From assembly GCA_958296125.1 (NCBI GenBank), contig OY282444.1, positions 2,823,623 through 2,887,622 on the forward strand: a DNA stretch of 64,000 bases. The letters are read 5' to 3'. This document shows positions 6,240-45,163 of this stretch, piece by piece; the stretch's first letter is position 1; every line of letters begins with the position of its first letter. The notes under the pieces are model-generated. The model saw nothing but the letters and a program-made list of their open reading frames with translations, did not search any database and was not told the DNA's origin. Source of the DNA: an uncultured Poribacteria bacterium (GTDB lineage: Bacteria > Poribacteria > WGA-4E > PCPOR2b). Made by a program: the position numbers and the translations under genes.

Positions 6240-6266
6240 GAGCGAGCAAGCAGATCTTGCTCGCTC
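6240..6266 (+). terminator. Perfect hairpin after the LDH2 gene
   Basis: An 11-bp perfect inverted repeat (GAGCGAGCAAG and its complement, loop CAGAT) lies 46 bases after the stop. There is no T-run after it, so it may be a factor-dependent terminator or mRNA-stabilising hairpin rather than a classical intrinsic terminator. Confidence 0.4.
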
Positions 6267-6362
6267 TGAAAGGACGCAATTCTCACAACCGAAGTGCGTA
6301 GGTCCTAACTATGGTCGAGGTGCTCAAGGTTTAATACAGTGGACAGTTGATCTACAAGTTCG

Positions 6363-7268: not shown

Positions 7269-7377
7269 ATACAAATTCCTCTGTTTATCGTTTCTCTGCT
7301 TTAATGATTAAAAAAATCAGCATCTATTCAGATAGAGATACAACCTCACGTGGATTCCGAATCTATGGGCGTATCTA

Positions 7378-13377: not shown

Positions 13378-13398
13378 CACACGCTGTTTTGCCATAAT

Positions 13399-13473
<75 letters not shown>

Positions 13474-13506
13474 TATTTCGTTAGATTCATCAAGAGATAT
13501 TGCAGT

Positions 13507-14650
13507 AGGGGTATAGCACAGTGGGGTTAGGGCGTTCCGATAGATCGGAAAGGTCGGAGGTTCAAATCCTCTCGCCCCGATATTTCGTTAGATTCATCAA
13601 GAGATATTGCAGTAGGGGTATAGCACAGTGGGGTTAGGGCGTTCCGATAGATCGGAAAGGTCGGAGGTTCAAATCCTCTCGCCCCGATATTTCGTTAGAT
13701 TCATCAAGAGATATTGCAGTAGGGGTATAGCACAGTGGGGTTAGGGCGTTCCGATAGATCGGAAAGGTCGGAGGTTCAAATCCTCTCGCCCCGATATTTC
13801 GTTAGATTCATCAAGAGATATTGCAGTAGGGGTATAGCACAGTGGGGTTAGGGCGTTCCGATAGATCGGAAAGGTCGGAGGTTCAAATCCTCTCGCCCCG
13901 ATATTTCGTTAGATTCATCAAGAGATATTGCAGTAGGGGTATAGCACAGTGGGGTTAGGGCGTTCCGATAGATCGGAAAGGTCGGAGGTTCAAATCCTCT
14001 CGCCCCGATATTTCGTTAGATTCATCAAGAGATATTGCAGTAGGGGTATAGCACAGTGGGGTTAGGGCGTTCCGATAGATCGGAAAGGTCGGAGGTTCAA
14101 ATCCTCTCGCCCCGATATTTCGTTAGATTCATCAAGAGATATTGCAGTAGGGGTATAGCACAGTGGGGTTAGGGCGTTCCGATAGATCGGAAAGGTCGGA
14201 GGTTCAAATCCTCTCGCCCCGATATTTCGTTAGATTCATCAAGAGATATTGCAGTAGGGGTATAGCACAGTGGGGTTAGGGCGTTCCGATAGATCGGAAA
14301 GGTCGGAGGTTCAAATCCTCTCGCCCCGATATTTCGTTAGATTCATCAAGAGATATTGCAGTAGGGGTATAGCACAGTGGGGTTAGGGCGTTCCGATAGA
14401 TCGGAAAGGTCGGAGGTTCAAATCCTCTCGCCCCGATATTTCGTTAGATTCATCAAGAGATATTGCAGTAGGGGTATAGCACAGTGGGGTTAGGGCGTTC
14501 CGATAGATCGGAAAGGTCGGAGGTTCAAATCCTCTCGCCCCGATATTTCGTTAGATTCATCAAGAGATATTGCGATAGGGGTATAGCACAGTGGGGTTAG
14601 GGCGTTCCGATAGATCGGAAAGGTCGGAGGTTCAAATCCTCTCGCCCTAA
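13507..14650 (+). repeat. Tandem array of eleven tRNA-Pro-like degenerate sequences, 107-bp period
   Basis: Copies start at 13507, 13614, 13721, 13828, 13935, 14042, 14149, 14256, 14363, 14470 and 14577. Each has a 74-base tRNA-like part plus a 33-base spacer that is identical to the real tRNA's 3' flank. The 3' half (variable loop, T arm, CGCCCCG) matches tRNA-Pro exactly. The 5' acceptor strand is changed to AGGGGTA (two mismatches and one G-T), the D stem has one mismatch, and the anticodon arm is replaced by TTCCG-ATAGAT-CGGAA, a six-base loop with no normal anticodon geometry. Copies look identical by eye, except that copy 11 has a changed leader (GCGAT) and an altered 3' end. They are not functional Pro tRNAs as far as structure shows. 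Confidence 0.9.
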
Positions 14651-17186: not shown

Positions 17187-17233
17187 TAGGTTGATCCTAA
17201 GCGAAATCCCGATGAAATCGATGGAGATATATG

Positions 17234-19834: not shown

Positions 19835-19983
19835 AAAAGTAGTAGTCATAGTCCGTATGTCGTCCCGTTGTTCCCATTAGGGTTCGTCAGTGCTGGCTGC
19901 CGCTGGTTATTAGATATTGAAATTTATCTGACAAGCCGTTGCACTTGACAGCACAATAAAAACAACACCGCAAGACTCCCAAC

Positions 19984-21966: not shown

Positions 21967-22002
21967 TTCTAGAAGTTAGACACGTTCCAATATTCCATTT
22001 CG

Positions 22003-22028
22003 TAGGTAACGCGGATCTGCGTTCCCTA
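22003..22028 (+). other. Intercistronic hairpin between Mod 1 and Mod 2
   Basis: TAGGTAACGC, loop GGATCT, GCGTTCCCTA pair with one mismatch in a ten-base stem. The same element in perfect form is found between Mods 3 and 4 (26115-26140) and half of it between Mods 2 and 3. No T-run follows, so it may stabilise or process the polycistronic message. Confidence 0.5.
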
Positions 22029-22072
22029 CTAGGTGTTAGAGAAACTAAGAACAACCCCGCAAGGCCTCCAAC

Positions 22073-24037
22073 ATGCCAAAGCATTTTCACGACAAACTAA
22101 TCACTCTCCTCAAAACCGACTCCCGTTTCATTGACGACGAAGGCGAGCTAGTCGAAGCGGCGGTCATCGATCGCGCGTGGCAGATTGACCGCGCCCTGGT
22201 GAGGCTACTGCTCCGTGAACCTGATATAAAAGCAAAATTCTTTGACGAGATCGAAGGACACTATATCTTCAATACCAACAGCTTCATCGACTACATCTCC
22301 GACAAAAACTTCCTTGCCAATTCCTACACCCGCTTCCGTAACAAAATCGGGTTGAACATCGAGGATAAATTTCTGCCTGAACGAGGTGAGGTGTCTCTGG
22401 TTTGGCCCTACAAAGATTGCGTATTGGAAGGCGGACAGACGCAGGAGGAGGAGAAGCGTAAAGAGATATTTTTTAATGAGATTCTAGCGCAGGACGAAAT
22501 TGACCGCCTCTTTGACCCAAAGGTGTTGACCGGTTGGAAACGCTACACGGTTGACGGGGAGCAGAAGTTGACAAAGATTAAGCGGGATGACAGCGGTGTC
22601 ATTCGGGAAAACCTACTCATCAAGGGGAACAACCTACTGGCGTTGCACACGCTGAAAACGCAGTTCCGCGGAAAGGTCAAACTGATCTACATTGACCCGC
22701 CTTATAACACAGGGAGTGATAGTTTCGGCTATAACGATAGCTTTAATCATTCCTCATGGCTGACATTTATGAAAAATCGGATGGAAGTAGCAAGGGAGTT
22801 GCTACGCGATGATGGGGTAATTTTTGTTCAGTGTGATGATAACGAGCAAGCGTATCTGAAAGTGTTGATGGATGAGGTTTTCGGTCATGGAAATTTTGTC
22901 TCAAATTCCGCAGTTGTCATCAATAGGGGTGGCAGGGACTACGGGGGTATTGCGCGGCTCCATGAATACCTTTTGATATATTCAAGGGAACAGGGCACAG
23001 CACTCAATCAAATAGCAGAGAAAAATAAAAAGTTTGATTATAAAGACGATTTTGGTGGCTTTAACTTGATGGAGTTAAGAAATCGCAATATTCGATTTAA
23101 CGTCAAAAACCGCCCCAATTTGTGTTATCCATTTTATGTCAATCCAACCGATGCGGATGCATCAGGTCTATTGGAAATTTCCTTAGAGAAGAAAGAGGGC
23201 TTTGTTGAAGTGATGCCATTAAAGTCGCAAGGAGTACAGACAGTTTGGAGGTGGGGCAAGGAAAAGACCCATGCACACTTAAATACGACAATAAAAGGGA
23301 AAGCGAAACGGGATGGTAGCTATATGATTGTCCAAAAATACAGAAAATCCACCAAACGGCAAAGAAGCATTTGGGATGAAAAGGAATTTATAAATGAGAG
23401 GGGAACTGAACATATAAAAGCATTATTTGCTCAAAAAGTCTTTGACTACCCAAAATCAGAACATCTTATTTCACGGATTATCGAACTCGGCAGTGCCGTA
23501 GGGGACATTGTTCTAGATTTTCACCTAGGTAGCGGTACAACTGCCTCTGCTGCACACAAGCTGAGAAGGCAATATATTGCTATTGAGCAAATGGATTACA
23601 CCCAAAATATTCCGGCCAAGCGGTTAAAAAAAGTAATTGCCGGTGAACAGCACGGTATATCTCAATCCGTCAATTGGCAGGGCGGCGGCGACTTCATCTA
23701 TTGCGAACTAATGCCATACAACCAAGCCTTCATGGACAAGATCCAAGCCTCCCAATCTTCCGAAGCACTTGTAGCCCGCTGGCGGGACATCGCCGAAAAC
23801 TCATTCCTGAATTGGTATGTCAACGCGGAAATCCCAGAAGATGCGATAGCAGATTTCATCGAAATCGGTCAAGGCGAAAATGGGCTGGAAAAACAGAAAA
23901 AGCTACTAGCAGACCTGCTGGACAAGAACCAGTTGTATGTCAACCTTTCGGAGATAGAGGACGAGGATTTTGGTGTCAGTGCGGAAGATAAGGCGTTGAA
24001 TCGGGCGTTTTATGGCAATGGTCTAGATGATGCATAG
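22073..24037 (+). CDS. Type III DNA methyltransferase Mod, copy 2
   Basis: The 654-residue protein has the same conserved head and tail as copy 1, motif IV DPPYNT at 208-213 and a variant motif I FHLGSGTT near 483-490. Its centre (about 255-540) does not align in sequence with copy 1 by eye, including segments such as VVINRGGRDYGGIARLHEYLLIYSR and KRQRSIWDEKEFINERGTEH. This implies a different DNA target. It shares the HxGSGTT form and the VNxQGGGDFIYCEL junction with copy 5. It starts 106 bases after copy 1. Confidence 0.88.
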   Translation: MPKHFHDKLITLLKTDSRFIDDEGELVEAAVIDRAWQIDRALVRLLLREPDIKAKFFDEIEGHYIFNTNSFIDYISDKNFLANSYTRFRNKIGLNIEDKFLPERGEVSLVWPYKDCVLEGGQTQEEEKRKEIFFNEILAQDEIDRLFDPKVLTGWKRYTVDGEQKLTKIKRDDSGVIRENLLIKGNNLLALHTLKTQFRGKVKLIYIDPPYNTGSDSFGYNDSFNHSSWLTFMKNRMEVARELLRDDGVIFVQCDDNEQAYLKVLMDEVFGHGNFVSNSAVVINRGGRDYGGIARLHEYLLIYSREQGTALNQIAEKNKKFDYKDDFGGFNLMELRNRNIRFNVKNRPNLCYPFYVNPTDADASGLLEISLEKKEGFVEVMPLKSQGVQTVWRWGKEKTHAHLNTTIKGKAKRDGSYMIVQKYRKSTKRQRSIWDEKEFINERGTEHIKALFAQKVFDYPKSEHLISRIIELGSAVGDIVLDFHLGSGTTASAAHKLRRQYIAIEQMDYTQNIPAKRLKKVIAGEQHGISQSVNWQGGGDFIYCELMPYNQAFMDKIQASQSSEALVARWRDIAENSFLNWYVNAEIPEDAIADFIEIGQGENGLEKQKKLLADLLDKNQLYVNLSEIEDEDFGVSAEDKALNRAFYGNGLDDA

Positions 24038-24104
24038 TTCTAGGTTAGACGCGTTCCCTACGAAGTGTTAGACAAACTAAGAACAACACCGCAAGGTCCC
24101 CAAC

Positions 24105-26078
24105 ATGCCAAAGCATTTTCACGACAAACTAATCAATCTCCTCAAAACCGATCGCCGTTTCATTGACGACGAAGGCGAGCTAGTCAAAGCAGCGGTCATC
24201 GATCGCGCGTGGCAGATTGACCACGACCTGGTGAGGCTGCTGCTCTGTGAACCTGATATAAAAGCAAAATTCTTTGACGAGATCGAAGGACACTATATCT
24301 TCAATACCAACACCTTCATCAACTACATCTCCGACAAAAACTTCCTCGCCAATTCCTACACCCGCTTCCGCAACAAAATCGGCTTGAACATCGAGGATAA
24401 GTTTCTGCCTGAACGAGGTGAGGTGTCTCTGGTTTGGCCCTACAAAGATTGCGTATTGGAAGGCGGACAGACGCAGGAGGAGGAGAAGCGCAAAGAGATA
24501 TTTTTCAATGCGATTCTGGCGCAGGACGAAATTGACCGCCTCTTTGACCCGAAGGTGCTGACTCAATGGAAACGCCATACAGCTGACGGTGAACAAAAGG
24601 TGACGGGGATTAGACGCGATGAAAACGGCACGATACGCGAAAACCTGATTATCAAGGGGAATAACCTGCTGGCATTGCACACGCTGAAAACTCAGTTTCG
24701 CGGAAAGGTTAAACTGATTTACATTGATCCGCCTTATAATACGGGAGGGGAAGCCAATGTTTTTACCTATAACAATAATTTCAATCATTCATCTTGGCTG
24801 ACCTTTATGAAAAACAGACTTGAAGTTGCAAGGGAGTTTTTAAAGGATAATGGGTTCATCGCCATCGCCATTGACCACTATGAGCTATTTTATTTAGGGT
24901 CCATAGCCGACGAAGTTTTTGGCAGGGAGAATCGTGTAGGCATTTTAACGATCATTCATCATCCCGCAGGGAAGACAAACAATGATTTTTTTGCAACAAC
25001 AAATGAATTCCTTTTGGTCTATGCAAAGTATAAAGAACTGACAAAGATAAACTTTTTTGAGATGACCGAAGAAACCGAAAAAACTTTCAGCCACGAAGAC
25101 GAAGTTTCACGATATAAACTGGAAAAGTTGATGCGAAAGGGTGAGACAAGAAATGCGCGGAGGGAAGATCGCCCTAAGCAGTTCTATCCCATTTATGTTT
25201 CCAGAGATTTAAAGCAGATTTCGTTGACGAAAGTAGATGGTTATCATGAATTGCTTCCAGTAGAAGACCGTATAGAGTGGGTTTGGTCTAATTCCCCATC
25301 AACTTTACAAGAAAAGATAGATAAAGGGGAACTGGTCCCAAAAAGGCGCAACGATGGGAGCATTCAAGTTTTCTTTAAGCGAAGAATCACTGATTACCAA
25401 GGACAACGTCCCAAAACGACATGGACAGATAAAAAGTACAACGCGACCTTTCATGGCACGAGACTTTTAGAAAAGATTATTGGAAGAAAAAGTGTGAGTT
25501 ATCCAAAATCTCTTTATGCGGTTTTGGACACCTTAAAAATCATGACAGACAAAGATGATATAATCTTTGATTTCTTTGCAGGTTCAGGCACTACAGGGCA
25601 TGCGGTAATAGAATTAAATAAAGAGGATGGCGGTAGCAGAAAGTTTATTTTAGTGGAACAGTTAGAGGAACATGTAAAGATATGTAATGAGAGAATTCAG
25701 AAAGTAATGCAGCAGGAAGATATAGATGATTCTTTTGTTTGTTGCGAACTGATGCCATACAACCAAGCCTTTATGGACAAGATCCAAGCCTCCCAATCTT
25801 CCGAAGCACTTGTAGCCCTCTGGCGCGATATCGCCGAAAACTCATTCCTGAACTGGTATGTCAACGCAAAAATCCCGGAAGATGCGATAGCAGATTTCAT
25901 CGCTATCGGTCACGGCGAAAATGGACTGGAAAAACAGAAAAAACTGCTGGCGGAACTGCTGGACAAGAACCAGTTGTATGTCAACCTTTCGGAGATAGCG
26001 GACGAGGATTTCGGTGTCAGTGCGGAAGATAAGGCGTTGAATCGGGCGTTTTATGGCAATGGTCTAGATAATGTATAG
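24105..26078 (+). CDS. Type III DNA methyltransferase Mod, copy 3
   Basis: The 657-residue protein has motif IV DPPYNT at 208-213 and motif I FAGSGTT near 489. Its recognition region is distinct (for example VGILTIIHHPAGKTNNDFFATTNEFLLVYAKYKE), although its layout is closer to copies 1 and 4 (FHGTRLLEKIIGRKSVSYPKSLYAV) than to 2 and 5. The head carries a few private substitutions (INLLKTDRRF, LLCEPD). The gap from copy 2 is 67 bases, lacking most of the intercistronic hairpin. Confidence 0.88.
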   Translation: MPKHFHDKLINLLKTDRRFIDDEGELVKAAVIDRAWQIDHDLVRLLLCEPDIKAKFFDEIEGHYIFNTNTFINYISDKNFLANSYTRFRNKIGLNIEDKFLPERGEVSLVWPYKDCVLEGGQTQEEEKRKEIFFNAILAQDEIDRLFDPKVLTQWKRHTADGEQKVTGIRRDENGTIRENLIIKGNNLLALHTLKTQFRGKVKLIYIDPPYNTGGEANVFTYNNNFNHSSWLTFMKNRLEVAREFLKDNGFIAIAIDHYELFYLGSIADEVFGRENRVGILTIIHHPAGKTNNDFFATTNEFLLVYAKYKELTKINFFEMTEETEKTFSHEDEVSRYKLEKLMRKGETRNARREDRPKQFYPIYVSRDLKQISLTKVDGYHELLPVEDRIEWVWSNSPSTLQEKIDKGELVPKRRNDGSIQVFFKRRITDYQGQRPKTTWTDKKYNATFHGTRLLEKIIGRKSVSYPKSLYAVLDTLKIMTDKDDIIFDFFAGSGTTGHAVIELNKEDGGSRKFILVEQLEEHVKICNERIQKVMQQEDIDDSFVCCELMPYNQAFMDKIQASQSSEALVALWRDIAENSFLNWYVNAKIPEDAIADFIAIGHGENGLEKQKKLLAELLDKNQLYVNLSEIADEDFGVSAEDKALNRAFYGNGLDNV

Positions 26079-26114
26079 TTCTGGAGGTTAGACACCTTCC
26101 AATATTCCACTTCG

Positions 26115-26140
26115 TAGGGAACGCGAATCTGCGTTCCCTA
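26115..26140 (+). other. Intercistronic hairpin between Mod 3 and Mod 4
   Basis: A perfect ten-base stem (TAGGGAACGC with GCGTTCCCTA) and a six-base loop GAATCT lie in the middle of the 106-base gap. It is the same element as at 22003-22028 and lacks a following T-run. Confidence 0.5.
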
Positions 26141-26184
26141 TTAGGTGTTAGAGAAACTAAAAACAACACCGCAAGGCCTCCAAC

Positions 26185-28110
26185 ATGCCAAAGCATTTTC
26201 ACGACACCCTAATCACTCTCCTCAAAACCGACTCCCGTTTCATTGACGACGAAGGCGAGCTAGTCAAAGCGGCGATCATCGATCGCGCGTGGCAGATTGA
26301 CCGCGCCCTGGTGAGGCTGCTGCTCCGTAAACCTGATATAAAAGCAAAATTCTTTGACGAGATCGAAGGACACTATATCTTCAATACCAACAGCTTCATC
26401 GACTACATCTCCGACAAAAACTTCCTCGCCAATTCCTACACCCGCTTCCGCAACAAAATCGGGTTGAACATCGAGGATAAATTTCTGCCTGAACGCGGTG
26501 AGGTGTCTCTGGTTTGGCCCTACAAAGATTGTGTATTGGAAGGTGGACAGACAAAGGAGGCGGAGAAGCGCAAAGAGATATTTTTCAATGCGATTCTGGC
26601 GCAGGACGAAATTGACCGCCTCTTTGCCCCGAAGGTATTGACAGGTTGGAAACGCCACACGGTTGACGGGGAGCAGAAAGTAACAGAGATTAAGCGGGAT
26701 GTCAACGGCGTTATTCGGGAAAACCTACTCATCAAGGGGAACAACCTACTGGCGTTGCACACGTTGAAAACTCAGTGTCGCGGAAAGGTCAAACTGATTT
26801 ACATTGACCCTCCGTATAACCCTGATAGTCCGTCGAATACTTTTGCGTACAACAATAGTTTCAATCATTCATCTTGGCTGACTTTTATGAAAAACAGGTT
26901 GGAAGTGGCGAAAGAATTGCTGACTAAAGACGGTGCCCTCATCATAGCCATTGACGAAAATGAACAGGCATATCTTAGTGTTCTCCTCATGGAAGTATTT
27001 AGCGAGTATGAAATCCACTGTATTACAGTTATACACAATCCTCGTGGCATTCAGGGAACAAATTTCTCATATACTCACGAGTATGTGCTTTTCGTTATTC
27101 CACAAGGGAAAAAGGTGATTGGCGATAGAAAGATCCCCCCTGAAGAGGTTACTTGGGCCAACTTCAGAAATTGGGGCGGAGAATCAAGACGCGAAAATGC
27201 CAAGAATTGCTTTTATCCGATTATTGTGGAGGAGGGCAAAGTTGTTGGGTTTGGGGATGTCCTTGATAGTGATGAGCATCCTTTTGCTCAAACAACTCCA
27301 CAGGGGAAAAGAGATTTTGTATATCCAATCGATCCGAATATGATTGAACGCAAATGGAGATATGCAAGGCAAAGTGTAGATGAGGTCAAGCATTTGCTCA
27401 GAGCAAAAAAAACAAAAACGGGCTATGAAATTGAGATAGGAAAAGATTTTGGTGTGTATCGCACTGTTTGGGAAGATAGTAGATACGATGCCAACATTTA
27501 CGGAACACAAATTGTAAAGTCACTCGTGCCTGACTGTGATTTCGCTTTTCCAAAATCACTTTGGAATGTCTATGACTGTTTGTACTCGGTGGTAGCCAAT
27601 GATAAGGATGCTATTGTCTTAGATTTCTTCGGTGGGAGTGGCACAACTGCCCATGCTGTGTTGGAACTAAATAAAGACGGAGGCAACCGAAAATTCATTA
27701 TTTGCGAGCAAATGCACTATGTTGAAACTGTGACAAAAGAGCGCATCAAAAAGGTTATTGAGCAAAACAATAAGGGCGACTTCATCTATTGCGAACTGAT
27801 GCCATACAACCAAGCCTTCATCGACAAGCTCCAAGCCTCCCAATCTTCCGAAGAGCTTGTGAAACTCTGGCGTGACATCGCCGCAAACTCATTCCTGAAC
27901 TGGTATGTCAACGCAAAAATTCCGGAAGATGCAGTGGCAAATTTTATCGCTATCGGTCAAGGCGAAAATGGACTGGAAAAACAGAAAAAACTGCTGACGG
28001 AGCTGCTGGACAAGAACCAGTTGTATGTCAACTTTTCAGAGATAGAGGACGAGGATTTCGGTGTCAGTGGGGAGGATAAGGCGTTGAATCGGGCGTTCTA
28101 TGGCGAATAA
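26185..28110 (+). CDS. Type III DNA methyltransferase Mod, copy 4
   Basis: The 641-residue protein is the shortest of the five. Motif IV reads DPPYNP instead of DPPYNT; the catalytic DPPY is intact. Motif I is FGGSGTT near 481. The recognition region is unique (ITVIHNPRGIQGTNFSYTHEYVLFVIPQ). The tail ends at AFYGE, a few residues shorter than copies 1-3. Conserved head residues such as TQFRGKVK are changed to TQCRGKVK. All expected catalytic motifs are present, so it is probably active. Confidence 0.86.
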   Translation: MPKHFHDTLITLLKTDSRFIDDEGELVKAAIIDRAWQIDRALVRLLLRKPDIKAKFFDEIEGHYIFNTNSFIDYISDKNFLANSYTRFRNKIGLNIEDKFLPERGEVSLVWPYKDCVLEGGQTKEAEKRKEIFFNAILAQDEIDRLFAPKVLTGWKRHTVDGEQKVTEIKRDVNGVIRENLLIKGNNLLALHTLKTQCRGKVKLIYIDPPYNPDSPSNTFAYNNSFNHSSWLTFMKNRLEVAKELLTKDGALIIAIDENEQAYLSVLLMEVFSEYEIHCITVIHNPRGIQGTNFSYTHEYVLFVIPQGKKVIGDRKIPPEEVTWANFRNWGGESRRENAKNCFYPIIVEEGKVVGFGDVLDSDEHPFAQTTPQGKRDFVYPIDPNMIERKWRYARQSVDEVKHLLRAKKTKTGYEIEIGKDFGVYRTVWEDSRYDANIYGTQIVKSLVPDCDFAFPKSLWNVYDCLYSVVANDKDAIVLDFFGGSGTTAHAVLELNKDGGNRKFIICEQMHYVETVTKERIKKVIEQNNKGDFIYCELMPYNQAFIDKLQASQSSEELVKLWRDIAANSFLNWYVNAKIPEDAVANFIAIGQGENGLEKQKKLLTELLDKNQLYVNFSEIEDEDFGVSGEDKALNRAFYGE

Positions 28111-28237
28111 ACAATCTCAAAAAACACAGATCTCAATCCGTCATTATTTTATAGATGAAGGCGGCGATAGTGCTCTGTTTTCCCGGAAAGGGAAAGTACT
28201 GAACGCGCAAGGCAGATTATGGTGTCTACTACACACA

Positions 28238-28264
28238 AAAAAAGCCGCTCAACGCGGCGGCTTT
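28238..28264 (+). terminator. Hairpin after Mod 4
   Basis: AAAGCCGC and GCGGCGGCTTT form a strong stem around TCAAC, preceded by an A-run (so a T-run on the opposite strand) and ending in CTTT. It could terminate in either direction and would separate Mod 5 from Mods 1-4. Confidence 0.5.
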
Positions 28265-28288
28265 GGAGTGGAGAGAAAAAAATAAAAA

Positions 28289-28359
28289 GCCAGGGATATA
28301 GGATTGTGCAGGGCCGTAGCCTTCCAATCACACGGGTGAACCCGAATTTTGTCCCTGGC
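28289..28359. repeat. Structured 71-base repeat, copy 1
   Basis: The ends GCCAGGGA and TCCCTGGC are complementary. The interior includes CAGGGCCGTAGCCTTCC and CGGGTGAACCCG. A close copy of the same length lies after Mod 5 at 30496-30566. It may be a REP/MITE-like element or a small structured RNA. Confidence 0.6.
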
Positions 28360-28456
28360 AATTACAACCTATTATAATGCCATGCCCCTATAATGTCAAG
28401 TAAAAATTAGGGCTATTTAGTTTTCGGTCTTTTGACCGAACCGCAAGACTCCCAAC

Positions 28457-30454
28457 ATGCCAAAGTATTTTCACGCCAAACTAATCAATCTCCTCAAAAC
28501 CGATCGCCGTTTCGTTGACGACGAAGGTGAGCTAGTCAAAGCGGCGGTCATCGATCGGGCGTGGCAGATTGACCACGCCCTGGTGAGGTTGCTGCTCCGT
28601 AAACCTGATATAAAAGCAAAATTCTTTGACGAAATCGAAGGACACTATATCTTCAATACCAACAGCTTCATCGACTACATCTCCGACAAAAACTTCCTCG
28701 CCAATTCCTACACCCGCTTCCGCAACAAAATCGGCTTGAATATTGAGGATAAATTTCTGCCTGAACGAGGTGAGGTGTCTCTGGTTTGGCCCTACAAAGA
28801 TTGCGTATTGGAAGGTGGACAGACAAAGGAGGCGGAGAAGCGCAAAGAGATATTTTTCAATGCGATTCTGGCGCAGGACGAAATTGACCGCCTCTTTGAC
28901 CCGAAGGTATTGACCCGTTGGAAACGCCACACGGTTGATGGTGAGCAGAAAGTAACAGAGATTAAGCGGGATGTCAACGGCGTAATTCGGGAAAACCTAC
29001 TCATCAAGGGGAACAACCTACTGGCGTTGCACACGCTGAAAACTCAGTTTCGCGGAAAGGTCAAACTGATCTACATTGACCCACCATATAACACGGGGAG
29101 TGATAGTTTCGGCTATAACGATAGCTTTAATCATTCCTCATGGTTGACGTTTATGAAAAATCGGCTGGAAGTGGCGCGAGAATTGTTGAAGGTTGACGGG
29201 GTAATCTTCATTCATATTGACGATCAAGAAATGCACTATTTGAAATTGGTGGCGGATGATATATTCGGCAGAGATAACTTTATCGCAACCGTTCCGAGAA
29301 AGACGCGAAGCGGAAAAAGCGATGTGCCTTATAAACTATCACAGGATTTTGACTGGATGCTAATGTACACAAAAGGTGCGTCGAAAAAAGACGAGCTTTT
29401 CGGGCGCACCGTTGAAAGGAAATATTACAAGTCCCCCGATTTTCCGGACGATGAATGGCGACTCAGTCCGATGACGACGCAACGCACAATTCAGGAACGC
29501 CCGAATTCAAATTTCACACTCATAAATCCGAAAAACGGACAAGAATTTCCGGTCAACCCGAATCGGTGCTGGGCTGTTACCAAAGATACATTTCATCACT
29601 ACTACAAACAAGAAAAAATCGTTTTTCCCGGCGATTATGATTTCCTCAACATGAAACAGCCCGCCATGCGAGTTTTTAAATCCGAAGAGATCTCAAGGCG
29701 AGGCGATGATTTTGATAAGGCTTATGTCTCAACGAATTTCCTCAATCAGGTGATGGATGAATTACTGAAAAGCATGGTCAACAAGAAAGGCACAGATGAG
29801 ATTGTAGAACTATTTGGAGAAAAGGTATTTTCATACCCTAAGAATGAAAAACTTATTGAGCGTATTATTGAATATACAACAGAGGAAGGGGATACTGTTT
29901 TAGATTTTCACATCGGAAGCGGTACGACCGCCGCGGTTGCTCACAAGATGAACCGACACTGGATAGCTGTTGAACAGATGGATTATGTGGAAACCATCAC
30001 AATGGAGCGGCTCAAAAAAGTTGTCGGCAAAAAAGTTAAGGCAGAGGGAAAGCTAATCGAAGAAATTGACTACGACACCGGCGGTATCTCCAAATCCGTC
30101 AACTATCAGGGCGGCGGCGATTTCATCTATTGCGAACTGATGCCATACAACCAAGCCTTCATGGACAAAATCCAAGCCTCCCAATCTTCCGAAGTACTTG
30201 TATCCCTCTGGCGGGACATCGCCGAAAACTCATTCCTGAATTGGTATGTCAACGCGGAAATCCCAGAAGATGCCGTGGCGGATTTCATCGCTATCGGTCA
30301 CGGCGAAAATGGACTGGAAAAACAGAAAAAACTGCTGGCGGAACTGCTGGACAAGAACCAGTTGTATGTCAACCTTTCGGAGATAGAGGACGAGAATTTT
30401 GGTGTCAGTGCGGAAGATAAGGCGTTGAATCGGGCATTCTACAGAGACTCGTGA
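28457..30454 (+). CDS. Type III DNA methyltransferase Mod, copy 5
   Basis: The 665-residue protein is the longest of the set. Motif IV is DPPYNT at 208-213 and motif I is FHIGSGTT near 483. Its recognition region is unrelated by eye to the others (FIATVPRKTRSGKSDVPYKL, SPMTTQRTIQERPNSNFTL). The junction SVNYQGGGDFIYCELMPYNQAF matches copy 2. The N-terminus has PKYFHAK and DRRFVDD substitutions and the C-terminus ends AFYRDS. It stands 346 bases from copy 4, behind a hairpin, but has the same 17-base leader before its ATG. Confidence 0.88.
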   Translation: MPKYFHAKLINLLKTDRRFVDDEGELVKAAVIDRAWQIDHALVRLLLRKPDIKAKFFDEIEGHYIFNTNSFIDYISDKNFLANSYTRFRNKIGLNIEDKFLPERGEVSLVWPYKDCVLEGGQTKEAEKRKEIFFNAILAQDEIDRLFDPKVLTRWKRHTVDGEQKVTEIKRDVNGVIRENLLIKGNNLLALHTLKTQFRGKVKLIYIDPPYNTGSDSFGYNDSFNHSSWLTFMKNRLEVARELLKVDGVIFIHIDDQEMHYLKLVADDIFGRDNFIATVPRKTRSGKSDVPYKLSQDFDWMLMYTKGASKKDELFGRTVERKYYKSPDFPDDEWRLSPMTTQRTIQERPNSNFTLINPKNGQEFPVNPNRCWAVTKDTFHHYYKQEKIVFPGDYDFLNMKQPAMRVFKSEEISRRGDDFDKAYVSTNFLNQVMDELLKSMVNKKGTDEIVELFGEKVFSYPKNEKLIERIIEYTTEEGDTVLDFHIGSGTTAAVAHKMNRHWIAVEQMDYVETITMERLKKVVGKKVKAEGKLIEEIDYDTGGISKSVNYQGGGDFIYCELMPYNQAFMDKIQASQSSEVLVSLWRDIAENSFLNWYVNAEIPEDAVADFIAIGHGENGLEKQKKLLAELLDKNQLYVNLSEIEDENFGVSAEDKALNRAFYRDS

Positions 30455-31250: not shown

Positions 31251-31282
31251 TATGAGCTACAATATTATGAGGATTGATAACG

Positions 31283-34200
31283 ATGACTTTTCAAGAAATA
31301 ATTCTCGCTTTAGAGCGGTTTTGGGCGGATTACGGCTGCACCCTTCAGCAACCGACCGATATTGAGGTCGGCGCAGGGACATTTAACCCCGCTACCTTCC
31401 TACGCTGCCTCGGACCAGAACCGTGGCAAGTCGCCTATGTCGAACCCTCACGGCGGCCCGCTGACGGACGATATGGCGAAAATCCATTTCGGCTCGGAGC
31501 TTACTACCAATATCAGGTGATACTTAAACCCGCGCCGACAGATGTGCTGCCGCTCTACCTTGAGAGTTTACGATATTTAGGAATCGATGCCCGTCAAAAT
31601 GACTTCCGTTTCGTGGAGGACGATTGGGAGGCACCGACATTAGGGGGATCTGGACTCGGTTGGGAGGTCTGGTGGAACGGTGCCGAAGTAACACAATTCA
31701 CCTACTTTCAACAGATGGGAGGGATTGAGTTAGATCCAATCTGCGCCGAATTGACGTATGGATTGGAACGCATCGCACTCTATCTGCAAGATGTCGGCAG
31801 TTTCTTCGACATCAAATGGAATGAGCAACTAATCTACGGGGACGTGCATCACCAGAGCGAGGTGGAGTACTCCAAATACCAGTTTGAGGGCGCGAACGTT
31901 GAGACGCTGTTCAACCTCTTCGATGCCTATGAAAAGGAGGCATCAGGCTGCTTAGAGTCCGGCTTGATACTGCCGGCGACGGATTACGTCCTGAAATGTT
32001 CACATACCTTCAACGTCCTTGATGCCCGCGGTGTCATCAGCGTGACGGAGCGCGTCGGCTACATTGAGCGCGTTCGACGCCTCGCACAACGGACCGCACG
32101 CGGCTATGTCGCGCAACGTGAGGAGATGGGGCATCCCTTGTTGAATCGTTGGAAACCCAAACCGGAGGAAGGGCTGGATGAAAAAAAGGGTTTAGACACT
32201 CGATCGGAGGTTAAGGAACAGATCGAAGAACAAACCGTAATTGAATCGTCCGCGGATTTCCTCCTAGAGATTGGAACGGAGGAGATCCCCGCCGGCTATA
32301 TCCCACCTGTCTTGGACCAGCTTCGGGAGCTTGCCGCCCAATCACTTACGAGTGCTCGGCTCCCGTTTGAAGATATCCGGACGCTGGCAACCCCACGCCG
32401 TCTAACCTTATGGGTCCAGGGATTGGCAACCCTACAGCCGGATCAGGTCACTGAGGTGGTCGGTCCCCCGAAGCGCGTCGCCTACGATGCGGACGGGAAT
32501 CCCACCAAAGCGGCGATCGGTTTTGCAAAGACACAAGGCATCAACGTCGAAGATCTAAAAATCGTTGAGACACAGCGTGGGGAATATGTCGCTGTGGATA
32601 AACTCGAAAAGGGGCAATCCGCCCAAGACCTGCTGAAAACAGAAATCCCTGAGTGGATCCAATCCCTGAGTTTCCCGAAAACGATGCGCTGGGATAATCT
32701 GAGGTTTGCGCGTCCCATACGGTGGTTGGTCGCCCTGCTGGGGAATGGGGTGGTGGATTTCCAACTGGACACGTTGTGTTCGGGCGGGCAGACGTACGGT
32801 CATCGCTCGTTGAACCCTGAACCTGTTGAACTCTCCTCTGCTTCGCTTGGAGATTATATTGAGCGTTTACGAGCGGTCAATGTGCTTGTCGATCCGGAGG
32901 CGCGGCGCAACGAGATCAAGAATCAAGTCACAGATATCCTGAAAGCCGAAGGCTGTTTGACCACAATCGATTCGGAGTTGCTAGATACCGTCAATTTTCT
33001 TGTCGAAAATCCTCAAGCAATTGTGGGTAGTTTCAGTGAATCTCATCTCTCTTTGCCGACCGAAGTTTTAATCACCCCCATGAAGACGCAACAACGCTAC
33101 TTTCCAATGTGGCAGTCTGATGGAAAGCTGGCGGCAAAGTTTATAGCGATTTCCAACGGGACCGACGGCAACTTTGACGGCATCCGGCACGGCAACGAGC
33201 GGGTCTTGCATGCCCGACTCAACGACGCAGCGTTCTTCTACAACGAAGATCAGAAGACCTCGCTCACGAATAAAGTTGATCGACTGCACAACGTTGTTTT
33301 TCAGGTGAAACTCGGTTCCCTCCACGACAAACTCACCCGATTGAAAGAGCTTGCTACATTCATCGCAGAGGGGATTGGCGTTGATGAAAGCGTCAAGAAT
33401 CACGTCATTCGAGCGGCATCACTTTGTAAGGCAGATCTGACAACGCAGATGGTGATTGAATTTCCATCTCTACAAGGGGTTATCGGGAAATACTACGCCG
33501 AAAATTCTGGTGAACCCCACGCAGTTGCCGTGGCGATTGAGGAACACTATCAACCCATCGCCGTCGACGCGCCTATCCCATGCACTGACGTAGGGACAAT
33601 CGTTGCGCTTGTGGATAAAATTGACACCATCGTTGGGTACTTCGGTATTAATGAACGGCCCACAGGTTCCCAAGATCCGTATTCACTTAGACGGCATGCA
33701 ATCGGAACAATACGCATCCTCCACGAGCGCAACCAACACCTCGCACTGACTCCTGTCATTGAGAAGGCGATTGAACTATATCAGGTCGATTTCGTCGAAG
33801 ATACAAAGCCTGCTGTCCTTGATTTTATCAAGGGGCGGATGGAAGTGCTTCTGGGCGGACAAAGCTACGCGTCGGACCTTAGCTACACACCAGACCTTAT
33901 TGATGCAATCCTCGCAACGGACGAGGTGGATGTGATTGATATTCTAGAGCGAGCGGTGGTCCTCAAAACTTTTCGTGAGGGACCGGACTTTGATCGGGTA
34001 TATCCGGCACTGAATCGCGTTCTGAGAATTTTGCCAGACCAACCACCGACAGAAATTCGGCCCAACCTGTTTCAGGATGAGGCTGAGAAGCAGTTAGGCG
34101 AAGTTATGGGCAGCATGGAAGCGGGGTTAAACCGATGCGTTCAGAAGCGTGATTATGAGGGGATACTTACCCGGCTCGGTGAGTCTCAGCCCGCAATCGA

Positions 34201-34336
34201 TCGGTTCTTCGATGATGTGATGGTCATGGCGGAAGACGCTGCGGTCCGATCCAATCGACTCGCACTGTTGAACGCTATTGCACAGAAGGTATACCCGCTT
34301 GCAGACCTGACGAAGTTGGTCATTGCAGGAACTTAA
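31283..34336 (+). CDS. glyQS: Fused glycyl-tRNA synthetase, alpha and beta subunits
   Basis: The roughly 1017-residue protein joins both subunits of the bacterial alpha2beta2 enzyme. Residues 1-290 are GlyQ ([52 protein letters not shown]). A charged linker of about 40 residues ([11 protein letters not shown]...) leads to GlyS, starting near [17 protein letters not shown] and continuing through [33 protein letters not shown] and the C-terminal anticodon-binding helices. ATG 31283 has a GAGGA site nine bases upstream; TTG 31274 abuts it. Such fusions are known in several phyla. It charges tRNA-Gly for translation. Confidence 0.92.
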
Positions 34337-38927: not shown

Positions 38928-41292
38928 AAACAAACAGGACCTGAAGGTTGAAGTGCCGCAAGAACTGCCAATTATTCCTGTCCCGGGAGACCTGGTTATC
39001 TTTCCGTATATGCCGCCGGTCCCCCCGTTTCCGCCGCATCACGTTGTGTTATCGGGAGAGAGCGTTACAGCGGCTGTCGATGAAGCCCTAATCGATGGTT
39101 CGCGGCTGCTCTGCATCTTTAATCTCCAGTCGGATAAAGACACACCGGAGTTGACCGTTGAAGACTTTAATACTGTTGGAACGCAGGTTTACATTATTAA
39201 GTGTCGCAAAGAGGATGAAAATGTCTTGTTCCTCGCACAGGGGCGGGCAAGGGTTCAGATTGAAGAAATTACGCAGACCGATCCATTTATCAAAGGACGG
39301 GTGCAAATCATTGAAGAAAAAGAGGAAGAAACGACCGTTGAAGTAGAAGCTCTGATGCGCAGTGTCACCTCTTTATTTCAAAAGATTGTCGAGCTTTCGT
39401 CACGATATCAGGAAGAATTCAGTATTATTGCAGACAATATTGACGAACCGGGGCGACTCGCAGATTATGTCGCGGCGACACTCGATCTCAAACCTCAAGA
39501 TAAGCAAGTACTTTTGGAAACCATCTCTCCCACAGATCGGTTGGCTCAATTAATCCTCTCACTCACTAAGGAACTAGACCTGCTTGAACTGGAAAGCAAG
39601 ATTCAGTCTGATGCCCAAGGTGTAATTAACCAAGGGCAGCGCGAATACTTTCTCCGCGAACAGATGAAAGCCATCCAAAAAGAGCTCGGTGAAGCCGACG
39701 ATCTGTTGCTAGAGATCGAGGAGATGCGAGAGCAGATTGAAAAAGCCAATATGCCCGAAAAAGTGCACACCGCTGCACACAAGGAGCTCAATCGCCTCTC
39801 CAAGATGCACTCAGCCTCCCCGGAGTCAACCGTTTCTCGAAATTACCTCGATTGGCTCATCAACCTCCCTTGGGATGTCAGCACACCCGACCGCCTCGAC
39901 ATCCCTCACGCAAAGCAGATCCTTGATGAAGATCACTATGATCTCGAAAAGGTTAAAGACCGAATTCTGGAATATCTTGCGGTGCGGATGCTCAAGAAAG
40001 ATATGAAAGGGCCCATCCTCTGCTTTGTGGGACCACCGGGGGTCGGGAAAACCTCGTTGGGTGCTTCAATCGCCAGAGCGATGGAGCGAAAATTTGTGCG
40101 GGTTTCATTGGGTGGAGTGCATGACGAAGCGGAAATTCGAGGACACCGACGAACCTACATCGGCTCAATGCCGGGGCGCGTTGTAAAGAGTCTACGTCAG
40201 GTAGAGTCCAATAACCCGGTTTTTATGTTAGACGAAATTGATAAACTCGGTTCAGATTTTCGCGGCGATCCGGCGGCGGCACTGCTTGAGGTGCTTGATC
40301 CAGAGCAGAACTTTGCTTTTGTGGATAACTACCTTGAGGTCTCCTTCGATCTCTCGAAGGTCATGTTCATTACCACGGCTAATCAGCTCCACACCATTCC
40401 CCCAGCCTTGCTTGATCGCCTCGAAATTCTCGAACTCCCCGGCTACACCACCAACGAGAAGTTGATGATTGCCAAGCAGTATCTCATCCCGCGCCAACTC
40501 GAAGCGCACGGTATTGAGGAGGCTACGCTGTCTATCGCGGATGACGCACTTCATCAGGTAATCGACAAATACACCCGTGAGGCAGGGGTCCGAAACCTTG
40601 AACGTGAGATGGGAGCAATCTGTCGAAAGGTTGCCCGCCAGATTGCCGAGGGGAAAGATACACCAACCCATGTGACAACTGACGATGTGCCGAATTATTT
40701 GGGACCAACCAAATTTTACTCTGAAATTGCTGAACGGAAGGAGGAGATTGGCGTTGTAACCGGTATGTCTGCCACCGCTTATGGGGGTGAGATTCTGTTT
40801 ATAGAGGCAACCAGTATGGCTGGTGAGGGAAAGTTACTTCTCACAGGACAGCTCGGTGATGTGATGCAGGAATCCGCCCAAGCCGCGCTAAGTTATGTCA
40901 AGTCCCAGGCGGAGATATTACATTTCGACCCTGATTTCTTCCGAAAGCACGACATCCACGTTCATGTGCCAGCCGGGGCGAGCCCGAAAGATGGGCCCTC
41001 CGCCGGTATCACCATCGCCACAGCCCTCGCTTCTCTGGCGACGAGACATAACGTCCTCCCCGAGGTTGCGATGACCGGCGAAATTACGTTGCGGGGGCGG
41101 GTGCTACCGATCGGCGGCTTGAAGGAGAAGACCCTCGCTGCCAAGCAAGCAGGGATTAAGACTGTTATCCTACCTGAGCGCAATCAGAAAGATCTGGTTG
41201 AAGTTCCCGATGATGCTAAGGAGGGACTTGAGTTTATGTTTGTTGATCATGTAGATGAAGTCCTTAATCGGGCACTCAAGCAAAATCAGTAA
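38908..41292 (+). CDS. lon: ATP-dependent protease Lon
   Basis: The roughly 795-residue protein has the complete Lon order: N-terminal LON domain ([15 protein letters not shown]), the coiled region with [18 protein letters not shown], the AAA+ module with Walker [17 protein letters not shown] near 372-386 and Walker [12 protein letters not shown], and the protease domain with catalytic Ser in [10 protein letters not shown] near 698 and Lys in [14 protein letters not shown] near 741. ATG 38908 or 38911 is chosen because AAAGGA lies just upstream within the end of hsp20; the frame opens earlier at 38872. Lon degrades damaged and regulatory proteins. Confidence 0.92.
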
Positions 41293-41404
41293 AAAACAAA
41301 CGCTCATGTCAAGAAATCGTGCAACAGCAGCATCGGGACTAAGAAGCCTGTCCCTACAGTTGAGATAAACCGCTGAGATTTTGGAAAGAGAGACGGAGAT
41401 ACGG

Positions 41405-44320
41405 ATGCAGACTGAGGACACAATTTCGGTCTATATAGCGGATATATTGCGAGAACGCAGAAATACATGGAGCATCGAATCACAGGAAACACTGCTGCGC
41501 GAAGCCAAACGTCCCGATATAACCCTGACAGAAACCGGCAAAGAGCCGATGGTCATAGAGGTAAAGATTGACCACCACCGCTCACCAAATTTAGAGGGCG
41601 AAGAGCAAGCAAAAGGACGATTCGGAAAACGCTTGGCATCATTTGAAATCCTTAAAACCGCCATGGCATTACGAGTCCCCTATCGGTTTCGACAGCTCAG
41701 CAGTGCTGAGATTTCTAACGCACTCCGACACGCCGATGACCTCCATTACGCCCTCTTCAGCATTGATGCCCCTCACCGTTTTCCCAATAGCGGTTGGATT
41801 GTCGGCAGTATCAGTGACGTTGCCACTGCCCTCCGAATTGGTGCCATCCCCATTTCCAAAGTTGTTCAAGCCGCCGAAGATTTAGAGCGCGGCGTAAATG
41901 AAGCTGCAATCCTCCTCGCTGCTGCTGTAAAAATACGCCCCCACATCGCAGAAACCATTGAGGAAATCCTCTATCAAGGAGCGGGTGAACAGACCTATCG
42001 GATGGCGATGTTGATCATCACAAATGCTTTCGTTTTCCAGAGCGCACTTGCCGGAACCCCGGGAATGGACACAGTGCCATCCCTCGGCCAACTCCAAACG
42101 GTGGGAGAACAACTTAACGTCAATGAAGTCTTGAACGCGTGGGATGTCGTTCGACAGGTCAACTATCGTCCAATCTTTGATGTTGCGTATCATCTGACGA
42201 AAGAGGTGCTGGCAACAGACGATAAACTGGTCGGACAGGTATTGTGGACCCTACGTAACACCGCCCAAGGACTAATTACGCGAGGGTTGGCGCAGATACA
42301 CGAGCTAGCGGGCATCGTCTTTCAACGGTTAATTGTTGACCGACGGTTCATCAAGGCAAATTATACGCGCCCCGAGTCCGTTGCACTGCTCTCCGCCCTC
42401 GTTTTACCCGACGGGCAGCCTACCCTAGGGGAGGGGCTATGTGCCTTTCCAAAGGTCGCCGATTTTGCTTGTGGCACCGGCGCACTACTAAACGGACTTT
42501 ACCAGCGGATATTGGCACTACATGAACAAGCGGGTGGGATTGGGAAAGACATTCACCGGCAAATGGTAGAAAATAACCTCGTTGGGGCTGATATCATGCC
42601 CAATGCCAGCCACCTCACCGCTTCAATTATTGCGAGCACCTACCCCGATGTCAAAATTGGGAAAACCCGCATTCACACTATGGCATACGGCACGCAGCGA
42701 CTAGATGGCAAATATGCAATAGGGGCTTTGGATTTACTTGAGAATCCGGAGGCAACGTTGCCATTAGGGTTAATAAACGCGGAGCAGGTTCAAGGTGGTG
42801 ACAGCTCAGACGATACCCAAGAATCGGAATTTCGGCACGGCGAATTTGATATCATCATCGATAATCCACCCTTTACAAGGATGGGAGCGGATAATAATTC
42901 TGATAACCCTGATGTTCCGACGACTCTGTTTGGAGATAAGGATGAAGATGTCGCCAAGGCGATGAAAACATCGCTCCGAAGCATGGAGACCTCCATCGCA
43001 AATGGCAACGCCGGCCTCGGTTCCTATTTTGTTGACCTTGCAGATCGGATGCTAAAAAGTAGTGATGGGGAGGCATCTCTGTATCCGCCCACGATGGGGT
43101 TCGTGCTTCCCTTGACTGTCCTGACTTCTCCCAACTGGCAGAAGGTAAGAGACCTATGGGCTACTATGTATCACGATGTAACTGTTGTCACCATCGCCGA
43201 TGCCAAAACGGGAAACTGTGCCTTCTCCGCGGACACGGACATGGCAGAGTGTCTCGTGGTTGCCCTCAAAGGCAGGACGGAAAACACCGGCCGCGGCACC
43301 TTTGTCTGTCTGCACCGCAGGCCAAATAGCCATTTAGAGGCAGTTGAAATAGCTAAGTGGATTCAACATCTCCGAAATGTCAGAAAGTTTGAAGATCCAC
43401 CAATCGGTGGGAATCCTATCAAGGTCGGGGATGAGATAGTAGGGTTTGCCTTAAATTGTCCGTTGCAAGGGGTGTGGACCACCTCACGCATCAGAGATCT
43501 CGCGTTGATTCAATCCACCTATCACTTAGCAAATGGGCATGTCTGGTTACCGGGACAGCGCACCCTCCTCGAAATACCGATGAGGACTATCGGTAAGATT
43601 GCGACAATCGGTTTTAACCACCGAACTATTAAGGACCCATCATGGGGTGCCTTTGACATAGAAATGGGGTGCTCCGATACAGATTTGTATCCGGGGTTGT
43701 GGCATCTCGATTCAGACAATCAACGCGCCATGGTTGTGCAACCGGATTGCCACGGCCTCATTCGTTCCAACTATTGGGACAAAGCCCAGGAAATATTGGA
43801 AAGAAATGGACGCGTCCATCACAATTTAGATTTACGGTTTAACGCAAATTCTCTATCAGTGCTCTTCACAGAGAAGACCGCTATCGGTATCGGCTGCCCC
43901 AATGTCGTGTTTGAAAATCCTTTACATGACTACGTTTTCTCCTTGTGGGGAAACTCAACCTTGGGGTTGTTATGCCACTGGATGCATTGTAACAAGCAGC
44001 ACGAGGGGCGTGGAAGAGTTAGCTTGAAGGTCCTAGAGTCAATGCCGACGTTGGATGTGCATCAATTGGATCAGGCTGCCTTGCAGAACGCCGAGTGTAT
44101 TTTTGAGGAGATGAAGCATAAGCGGATGCTTCCGTTCAATCAGATGTTTGAGGATGTGGCGCGTCAGGAGTTGGATCGGCGGCTGTTATCTGAGGTGCTT
44201 GGGATATCTGAGACAACACATCCGGATGTTTATGCGGGCTTGGATCGCCTCCGCGAGCGATTGTGTGAAGAGCCTAGCATCCACGGTGGGAAGCTGTCGC
44301 GGGTTACATTGCCGCCTTAG
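41405..44320 (+). CDS. Single-chain nuclease plus N6-adenine methyltransferase (type IIG-like restriction enzyme)
   Basis: The roughly 971-residue protein combines an N-terminal PD-(D/E)XK motif (P37-D38 ... I51-E52-V-K54) with a gamma-class methyltransferase: motif I DFACGTGALLNGLY near 353 and motif IV DNPPF near 486. A long C-terminal part could be the target-recognition domain. A single protein that both cuts and methylates fits type IIG or BREX/DISARM-like solitary enzymes; no partner genes are seen. ATG 41405 is chosen over TTG 41381 because GGAG lies six bases upstream. It overlaps no neighbour and could have been acquired separately from the type III cluster. Confidence 0.75.
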   Translation: MQTEDTISVYIADILRERRNTWSIESQETLLREAKRPDITLTETGKEPMVIEVKIDHHRSPNLEGEEQAKGRFGKRLASFEILKTAMALRVPYRFRQLSSAEISNALRHADDLHYALFSIDAPHRFPNSGWIVGSISDVATALRIGAIPISKVVQAAEDLERGVNEAAILLAAAVKIRPHIAETIEEILYQGAGEQTYRMAMLIITNAFVFQSALAGTPGMDTVPSLGQLQTVGEQLNVNEVLNAWDVVRQVNYRPIFDVAYHLTKEVLATDDKLVGQVLWTLRNTAQGLITRGLAQIHELAGIVFQRLIVDRRFIKANYTRPESVALLSALVLPDGQPTLGEGLCAFPKVADFACGTGALLNGLYQRILALHEQAGGIGKDIHRQMVENNLVGADIMPNASHLTASIIASTYPDVKIGKTRIHTMAYGTQRLDGKYAIGALDLLENPEATLPLGLINAEQVQGGDSSDDTQESEFRHGEFDIIIDNPPFTRMGADNNSDNPDVPTTLFGDKDEDVAKAMKTSLRSMETSIANGNAGLGSYFVDLADRMLKSSDGEASLYPPTMGFVLPLTVLTSPNWQKVRDLWATMYHDVTVVTIADAKTGNCAFSADTDMAECLVVALKGRTENTGRGTFVCLHRRPNSHLEAVEIAKWIQHLRNVRKFEDPPIGGNPIKVGDEIVGFALNCPLQGVWTTSRIRDLALIQSTYHLANGHVWLPGQRTLLEIPMRTIGKIATIGFNHRTIKDPSWGAFDIEMGCSDTDLYPGLWHLDSDNQRAMVVQPDCHGLIRSNYWDKAQEILERNGRVHHNLDLRFNANSLSVLFTEKTAIGIGCPNVVFENPLHDYVFSLWGNSTLGLLCHWMHCNKQHEGRGRVSLKVLESMPTLDVHQLDQAALQNAECIFEEMKHKRMLPFNQMFEDVARQELDRRLLSEVLGISETTHPDVYAGLDRLRERLCEEPSIHGGKLSRVTLPP

Positions 44321-44506
44321 AAGTGCTAAAGAATGCAGGCCATGGGCAATTATTGGGAGTTACAAATTCTGAATTTATTCAAAAAGAAGCTATCTATCGA
44401 GGTGAACAAGGGGGGTTAGGTTGCGATAAAATAATTCGATTGACACTGATACCCATCCATTATAAAATGCTGATGTATTTACAAACATAATGAAGGAGAA
44501 TTCCTG

Positions 44507-45163
44507 ATGGCAGTTAAAATAGAGAAGATGTTTGACTTTCCGGGCCCACAGCCAAACGGCATGCAAGCCACAGAAGAAGGGATCTGGTTTCTTGATCAGG
44601 TTTCAAATCAAGCCCTCCTCGTCTCCTACGAAGGGGAAACTTTGGAGGCGTTCGATACGGATTCCGAGCACGGGAGCGGTATCACGGTGAACGGTGCGGA
44701 CCTTTGGATCGCATCAACCTTCGTCCCGACGCGCATAAAAACCGATGGTCCGGCAATTCTAAAAGCTGACCGATCGAGTGGAAAGACCCTTGCCGCCTAT
44801 CCGACCGCAGGTGCCAAGGAGTCAGGGGCACACGGATTGGAGTGGCGCGATGGCAAATTGTGGATGGCAGTGCCGCCTTCAGCGACCGTTTACCAGTTAG
44901 ATCCGGAAAACGATCTCGCTGTCCTGCATTCTTTCCCGGCTCCCGGAGTCCGTCCACACGGTCTCGCATGGGAGGGGGATGATCTCTGGTGCGTTGAAAC
45001 AAACTACCGCGCCTTCTATCGCATGAATCTCAAAGATGGTTCGACCATTGATAAGATCGAAATTCCCGAACCACACCCGGAACCGCACGGCATGACCCGC
45101 TGGGATGGGTGCTTCTGGTACTGTGATGCCGGATCCGGAGCCGTTTGCCGGGTGTCTCAATAG
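44507..45163 (+). CDS. Beta-propeller protein (NHL/streptogramin-lyase or PQQ-like)
   Basis: The 218-residue protein has about five blades of about 40 residues with repeated cores GIWFLDQVSNQALLVSY, DLWIASTFVPT, GKLWMAVPPSATVYQLD, DDLWCVETNYRAFYRM and GCFWYCDAGSGAVCRV. No signal peptide is visible, so it is probably cytoplasmic. The cysteines and histidines near the blade ends (HGLEW, HGLAW, HGMTRW) recur regularly and may line a central channel. The catalytic function is not evident. A GAAGGAGAATTCCTG site precedes ATG 44507. Confidence 0.6.
   Translation: MAVKIEKMFDFPGPQPNGMQATEEGIWFLDQVSNQALLVSYEGETLEAFDTDSEHGSGITVNGADLWIASTFVPTRIKTDGPAILKADRSSGKTLAAYPTAGAKESGAHGLEWRDGKLWMAVPPSATVYQLDPENDLAVLHSFPAPGVRPHGLAWEGDDLWCVETNYRAFYRMNLKDGSTIDKIEIPEPHPEPHGMTRWDGCFWYCDAGSGAVCRVSQ

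Follow-up and report, generated by a model that had tools for sequence, protein, structure and literature searches.

A probable single-chain type IIG restriction-modification enzyme inserted beside lon in an uncultured Poribacteria genome

In this study we have analysed a gene of an uncultured Poribacteria bacterium lying on 64,000 nucleotides of contig OY282444.1 (the whole stretch is called here the window), and we consider it highly probable that this gene codes for a self-sufficient single-chain type IIG restriction-modification enzyme of 971 residues (41405..44320, + strand, stop codon included; defined by reading frame, Pfam and alignment). The computed basis of this reading is the frame with its motifs, the predicted fold, the selection on the nuclease domain, the exchange of a block in sister groups, the solitary insertion of the gene and its horizontal spread; motifs, profiles and sequence variation are what define the methyltransferase and recognition domains. 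From known families we infer the cutting and methylating reactions, the N6-adenine product, the cutting at a distance and as a dimer, and the antiviral role. A published account describes type IIG enzymes as gamma methyltransferases that carry a cleavage domain, mainly of the PD-(D/E)XK type, at the N-terminus; the monomeric ones hold their R, M and S domains in one chain (PMC3874165). By analogy, a recognition domain near the C-terminus would read a DNA site, the central domain would use SAM to add an N6-methyl group to an adenine of that site on host DNA, and the N-terminal metal-dependent PD-(D/E)XK domain would cut unmodified incoming DNA at a fixed distance, probably once two enzyme molecules have paired, since there is one catalytic site per chain. 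An exchange of the recognition domain would alter cutting and marking together. The window enzyme probably defends its host against foreign DNA.

Reading frame, motifs and predicted nuclease fold

The reading frame of the window gene is open throughout from a TTG at 41381 to the stop at 44320, and gives 971 residues from the ATG at 41405, a start residue shared by its close relatives. The window protein was aligned with 52 relatives that are 34–85% identical, which makes the 53 members counted below; loci fetched twice, relatives whose single frame spans fewer than 880 query residues (e.g. L007/L033 and L022, all of them split) and the distant L029 and L030 were left out of these counts. On the + strand the chain begins with the nuclease domain (residues about 1–135, 41405..41809; PD-(D/E)XK with E4, D38, E52 and K54), bounded approximately by motifs and predicted fold, and continues with a putative helical spacer (about 136–310, 41810..42334), placed approximately by the helices of a low-confidence model and by analogy with MmeI. 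The predicted gamma-class adenine methyltransferase domain (about 311–625, 42335..43279, approximate limits from motifs and profiles) contains, by alignment, motif I for SAM binding, DFACGTG (residues 353–359, 42461..42481), and the catalytic motif IV, NPPF (residues 487–490, 42863..42874). It is followed by the presumed target recognition domain (about 650–875, 43352..44029, boundary approximate), the most variable part and the one exchanged in sister groups, and by a partly helical C-terminal region (about 876–971, 44030..44317), taken from the domain-wise comparison and the low-confidence model.

A sequence-only reading of this DNA had reported the nuclease residues D38, E52 and K54 and gamma-class methyltransferase motifs in the same polypeptide of about 971 residues, and both are borne out. 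The nuclease residues stand at those positions and are conserved with few exceptions, D38 being kept in 53/53 members, E52 in 51 (D in the other two) and K54 in 49 (E in the other four), while DFACGTG and NPPF are present in the window protein and their family forms, (F/Y/L)ACGTG and NPP(F/Y), in all 53. The usual four-residue nuclease site is made up by E4, which sits in the first predicted helix and is found in 52 of the 53 members, with a gap in the remaining one.

The N-terminus of the window protein is predicted to be a PD-(D/E)XK nuclease fold. For a model of residues 1–170 built from 13 sequences (pLDDT 85.5, pTM 0.80), the best re-aligned PDB chain was that of the type IIG enzyme BpuSI (3s1s; Z 9.9, rmsd 3.0, 121 residues, 13% identity); the earlier reading had named an N-terminus lacking a nuclease fold as the outcome that would speak against it, and the predicted structure went the other way. 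After BpuSI come a restriction-endonuclease-like protein, TT1808, an HsdR fragment and the cutting domain of DrdV (Z 7.7), and BsaXI is also present (Z 6.0), the further matches being what we take to be PD-(D/E)XK nucleases. This ranking is a re-alignment of Foldseek's 1000 best chains, and families missing there are not thereby excluded; only five chains reach Z 8, and a Z under 8 may, by the tool's warning, mean a common arrangement. Foldseek itself gave no match to the N-terminal model at E 0.001 or better (best E 3.1e-3), a profile search of the PDB started from this domain returned chance matches only (best E 0.91), and 35 N-termini scanned against NCBIfam and Pfam matched no family consistently. 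A HyoA C-terminal match at residues 2–60 (E 1.4e-4, in 2 of 35 members) was discarded as too weak to use. A full-length model from seven sequences (pLDDT 38.5) was used for low-confidence helix positions alone.

Selection appears to keep the nuclease domain in use. Between the window copy and four close relatives the dN/dS of this domain is 0.139–0.214, values from which we argue that the domain is still used, and over all five domains it is 0.085–0.235, as estimated by plain counting, with dS values reaching 1.1. Could the gene be a decaying remnant without activity? Broken copies, with in-frame stops or reduced to fragments, are frequent among its relatives; the window copy, however, has an uninterrupted frame of 971 codons and retains its motifs, and the low dN/dS extends to all five domains, which leaves this reading with hardly any credit.

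Probable placement within type IIG

Judged by Pfam, PADLOC and PDB comparisons, the window gene falls outside the Pfam MmeI family and fits a type IIG branch of its own. The Pfam Eco57I model scores 25.1 bits on the window protein, just under the cut-off of 25.3, and matches 32 of 34 family members (E 0.01); the PADLOC IIG model PDLC03600 matches 25 of the 34. With the window protein as sole query, PADLOC's BREX PglX models do as well as its type IIG model (5.7e-5 and 6.3e-5), and the MAD2 model matches weakly (E 9.5e-4). Searched against the PDB, the family profile reaches BREX BrxX best (E 1.3e-8; motif I region, residues about 331–408), then DrdV (type IIL; E 8.9e-6), which the nuclease model matches as well, and, weakly, TaqI, LlaBIII, LlaGI and BsaXI (E 0.009–0.06). 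The window gene was not among the 8 matches of the Pfam MmeI methyltransferase model PF20473 in its own genome (E 0.001), where a true MmeI relative served as positive control with 290.9 bits; a profile comparison of the family with five Poribacteria MmeI relatives aligned the motif I region alone (probability 7.3%). The earlier suggestion that this may be a new type IIG subfamily is supported with limits: the layout is that of type IIG and PF20473 gives no match, and the Eco57I score lies very close to its cut-off. A search of the titles and abstract beginnings of open-access PMC papers found no description of the family, which does not prove it unpublished. The family would represent a separate single-chain restriction-modification branch, abundant in an uncultured phylum and weakly matched by the curated models tried; the window copy itself overturns no known biology.

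The type IIG enzyme BpuSI unites a nuclease, a spacer, a gamma methyltransferase and a recognition domain on a single polypeptide, the arrangement presumed for the window protein, but it is accompanied by two further methyltransferases, and the window gene has no adjacent one. The presumed layout of the window protein resembles the published map of MmeI (type IIL; PMC4833311), with similar domain sizes; the order and sizes of its putative parts would fit the five-part MmeI arrangement (nuclease, helical spacer, methyltransferase, recognition domain and helical C-terminus), the helices being those of a full-length model of low confidence (pLDDT 38.5). MmeI and DrdV are also like the window gene in having no adjacent extra methyltransferase. 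The window protein nonetheless differs from the MmeI family in its lack of a PF20473 match and in a profile alignment limited to motif I. With Eco57I (type IIG) the family shares the methyltransferase model and the window protein a similar length (997 vs 971 residues), whereas Eco57I-like systems have an adjacent companion methyltransferase, which the window gene does not, and the window protein stays just below the Pfam cut-off. BcgI and BsaXI (type IIB) likewise fuse a nuclease to a gamma methyltransferase but need a separate S subunit, and none adjoins the window gene. Neither a specificity (S) gene nor a companion methyltransferase is found among the flanking lon, HSP20, Vgb-like and YhgA-like genes. 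The statement of the sequence-only reading that there is no specificity subunit stands for the adjacent genes, but this is normal for a monomeric type IIG enzyme, in which R, M and S form one chain. In gene number the family recalls Borrelia, with up to 20 type IIG genes per genome, compared with up to 14 family matches here (in one genome, G045, some of them fragments); Borrelia belongs to an unrelated phylum, and the likeness meant here is one of gene number.

Presumed recognition block, its exchange and a sister clade at one locus

The specificity of the window enzyme is probably internal, in residues about 650–875, since these vary most, with the lowest identity along the chain, and the block is exchanged in two sister groups. 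For pairs in which the remaining sequence shows 80% identity or more, the recognition block is under 50% identical in 12 of the 54 from an 11-member sister group and in 15 of the 51 from one of 13 members. The window's own five-member group, with blocks 67–86% identical, shows exchange in none of 8 comparable pairs, and another sister clade, group B, in 0/7; the groups in this test hold 46 of the 53 members, and the block is taken there as residues 626–845. Two examples are L019 and L020, whose methyltransferase domains share 88% identity and whose recognition blocks share 47%, and L055 and L062, with 80% and 43%, whose divergence already begins near residue 476, inside the methyltransferase domain. 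L045 and L047 differ in their blocks (50%) despite common neighbouring genes, which suggests that the block was exchanged in place. From such natural exchanges of the presumed recognition domain on a similar frame one could learn how specificity is encoded.

Group B (L049–L052, L068, L025 and L125–L143) comprises 25 copies fetched from 25 genomes, all at one locus, with one neighbouring gene common to 25/25 and five others common to 17–20 of the 25. Full copies number 24 of 25; L137, split in two frames, was left out, and L138, which breaks off before the last stretch, was counted, hence the C-terminal minimum of 0.00 in this group. In all 24 rows counted both the nuclease and the methyltransferase motifs are preserved, and the recognition domains (residues 650–850) are 63–98% identical, with no exchange seen. 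Group B might hold a restriction enzyme kept in place with constant specificity and acting as an epigenetic mark. The groups that exchange, set against the one that does not, provide a test bed for when a restriction enzyme turns into a resident mark. The window copy belongs to a mobile group, not to group B. One may tentatively picture in the Poribacteria a radiation of one-gene units, as bare mobile genes of ~3 kb, with recognition exchange in some lineages and one clade fixed as an epigenetic marker, a scheme that we regard as possible but rather doubtful.

Eight relatives carry E in place of the catalytic K: three Poribacteria copies, one copy on a Nitrosospira plasmid and four on viral contigs. 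In the tree these eight fall together, though weakly supported (0.41), and K is retained in the plasmid outgroups L029 and L030. An E-x-E site is known in BamHI. On viral contig L098, positions 3926–7012 hold a family member with this substitution.

These relatives, together with a sister clade that holds one locus in 25/25 fetched copies without recognition-domain exchange, would agree with the window gene being mainly a solitary methyltransferase, that is, an epigenetic regulator whose N-terminal domain binds DNA or regulates and no longer cuts. We judge this unlikely, as the window copy keeps E4, D38, E52 and K54, the dN/dS of its nuclease domain (0.139–0.214) is similar to that of the other domains, and in the sister clade itself the nuclease site is intact in every row counted (24/24).

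Locus, spread and neighbourhood in the window

The window gene is inserted alone between lon and a Vgb-lyase-like gene. The segment between these two genes (41293..44506, no strand assigned) measures about 3.2 kb and holds on its strand one frame of at least 100 codons, which is the window gene; in genomes of the same genus the corresponding gap is about 80 bp (G002, G004 and G005) or about 125 bp (G003). Upstream lie lon, so named by sequence, and an HSP20 gene, and downstream the Vgb-lyase-like gene (37.3 bits, for a Pfam cut-off of 50) followed by a YhgA-like gene. In G001 the family gene also comes after lon, the other side being a contig end, and in G002 and G003 it is present on contigs other than that of lon, with other neighbours. 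No 8-base words common to 41281–41430 and 44301–44520 were found, direct or inverted, and no mobility gene was seen beside the window copy.

The window lies within a single contig of 5,156,246 bases, and the family gene occurs once in its own genome. Across the phylum 59 of 84 genomes, the own one included, match at E 1e-10 (58/72 in the same order and 1/12 outside), and in a smaller search 47 of 58 match at E 1e-5, with 14 matching places in G045; several matches in these genome listings are fragments or carry in-frame stops. Sequence divergence indicates that the family gene has spread horizontally, because its dS is below that of lon, the one housekeeping gene used as transfer control: the copy of G012, from another family, is 79.2% identical to the window gene with dS 0.82, whereas its lon is 73.5% identical with synonymous sites saturated, and within the genus the dS of the family gene is 0.52–0.62 against 0.74–0.84 for lon. 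Relatives are also found on plasmids (seven records, three covering 80%), one from Nitrosospira with 35.7% identity over 99% and two near 25% over 96–97%, and in phage records, where 11 matches near 25% identity are all partial and stay below 80% coverage. The window protein had no match in viral contigs. With the family alignment as query three contigs were recovered, and with the Nitrosospira copy four, a single contig being shared by the two sets; of the further scans the next gave an already known contig only and the last none.

Family members in other clades need not be solitary. A recurrent family of 116–303 residues lies just downstream of the family gene in L049, L057, L058, L060, L061 and L069, and the three members scanned (L049, L057 and L060) had no Pfam match; DUF6602, PIN-DUF433 or DUF5615 genes recur downstream of some relatives. 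Five tandem paralogues of 201–224 residues stand beside the family copy in L032 (4236–7419), and the one scanned had no Pfam match. In L041 a 260-residue frame (6535–7314) that matches enzyme residues 3–155 alone adjoins a full copy, and is either a stand-alone nuclease domain or a remnant.

Might the gene be part of a larger defence system, like BREX, DISARM or MADS, in which the methyltransferase directs effectors coded elsewhere? Its methyltransferase core fits the PglX models as well as those of type IIG, PglX/BrxX being by profile the most similar core in the PDB, MAD2 matches weakly, and the genes that recur downstream of some relatives (the 116–303-residue family near six copies, DUF6602, PIN-DUF433 and DUF5615) could be such partners. 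The BREX matches, however, concern the methyltransferase core, the PDB one being limited to about residues 331–408, neither neighbour of the window gene is a partner of this kind, the gene is inserted alone, and its chain has its own added nuclease domain; a Pfam scan of 26 window frames showed no BREX genes. We hold this alternative to be very improbable, and prefer the self-sufficient type IIG enzyme.

A type III cluster at 17231–30454, with one Res and five tandem full-length Mod paralogues of 641–665 residues, ends 10.95 kb upstream of the window gene, in agreement with the 11 kb given before. We rejected the idea of one island formed by the cluster and the window gene: in G002 and G004 Res keeps the distance to lon that it has in the window, about 22 kb, and the interval from lon to the Vgb-like gene lacks the window gene, so that gene and cluster can be separated in a test that concerns Res only. 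The window gene and the type III cluster are inherited separately. The earlier claim that the cluster makes this stretch rich in modification enzymes is not supported in any meaningful sense, given this separability and the 20 stretches of the genome that match the Eco57I methyltransferase model (the window gene and the true MmeI relative included, many in frames of 1000–1280 residues), by which such genes are common throughout. Restriction-modification has been reported as enriched in sponge metagenomes (PMC5099237).

Elsewhere in the window (13398–14650), a tRNA-Pro (CGG) gene precedes a tandem array of 11 tRNA-like units with 107-base spacing, in which the anticodon loop has collapsed to a near-perfect hairpin and for which ARAGORN gives a two-base anticodon. 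At 31274–34336, the alpha and beta subunits of glycyl-tRNA synthetase are fused in one 1020-residue frame.
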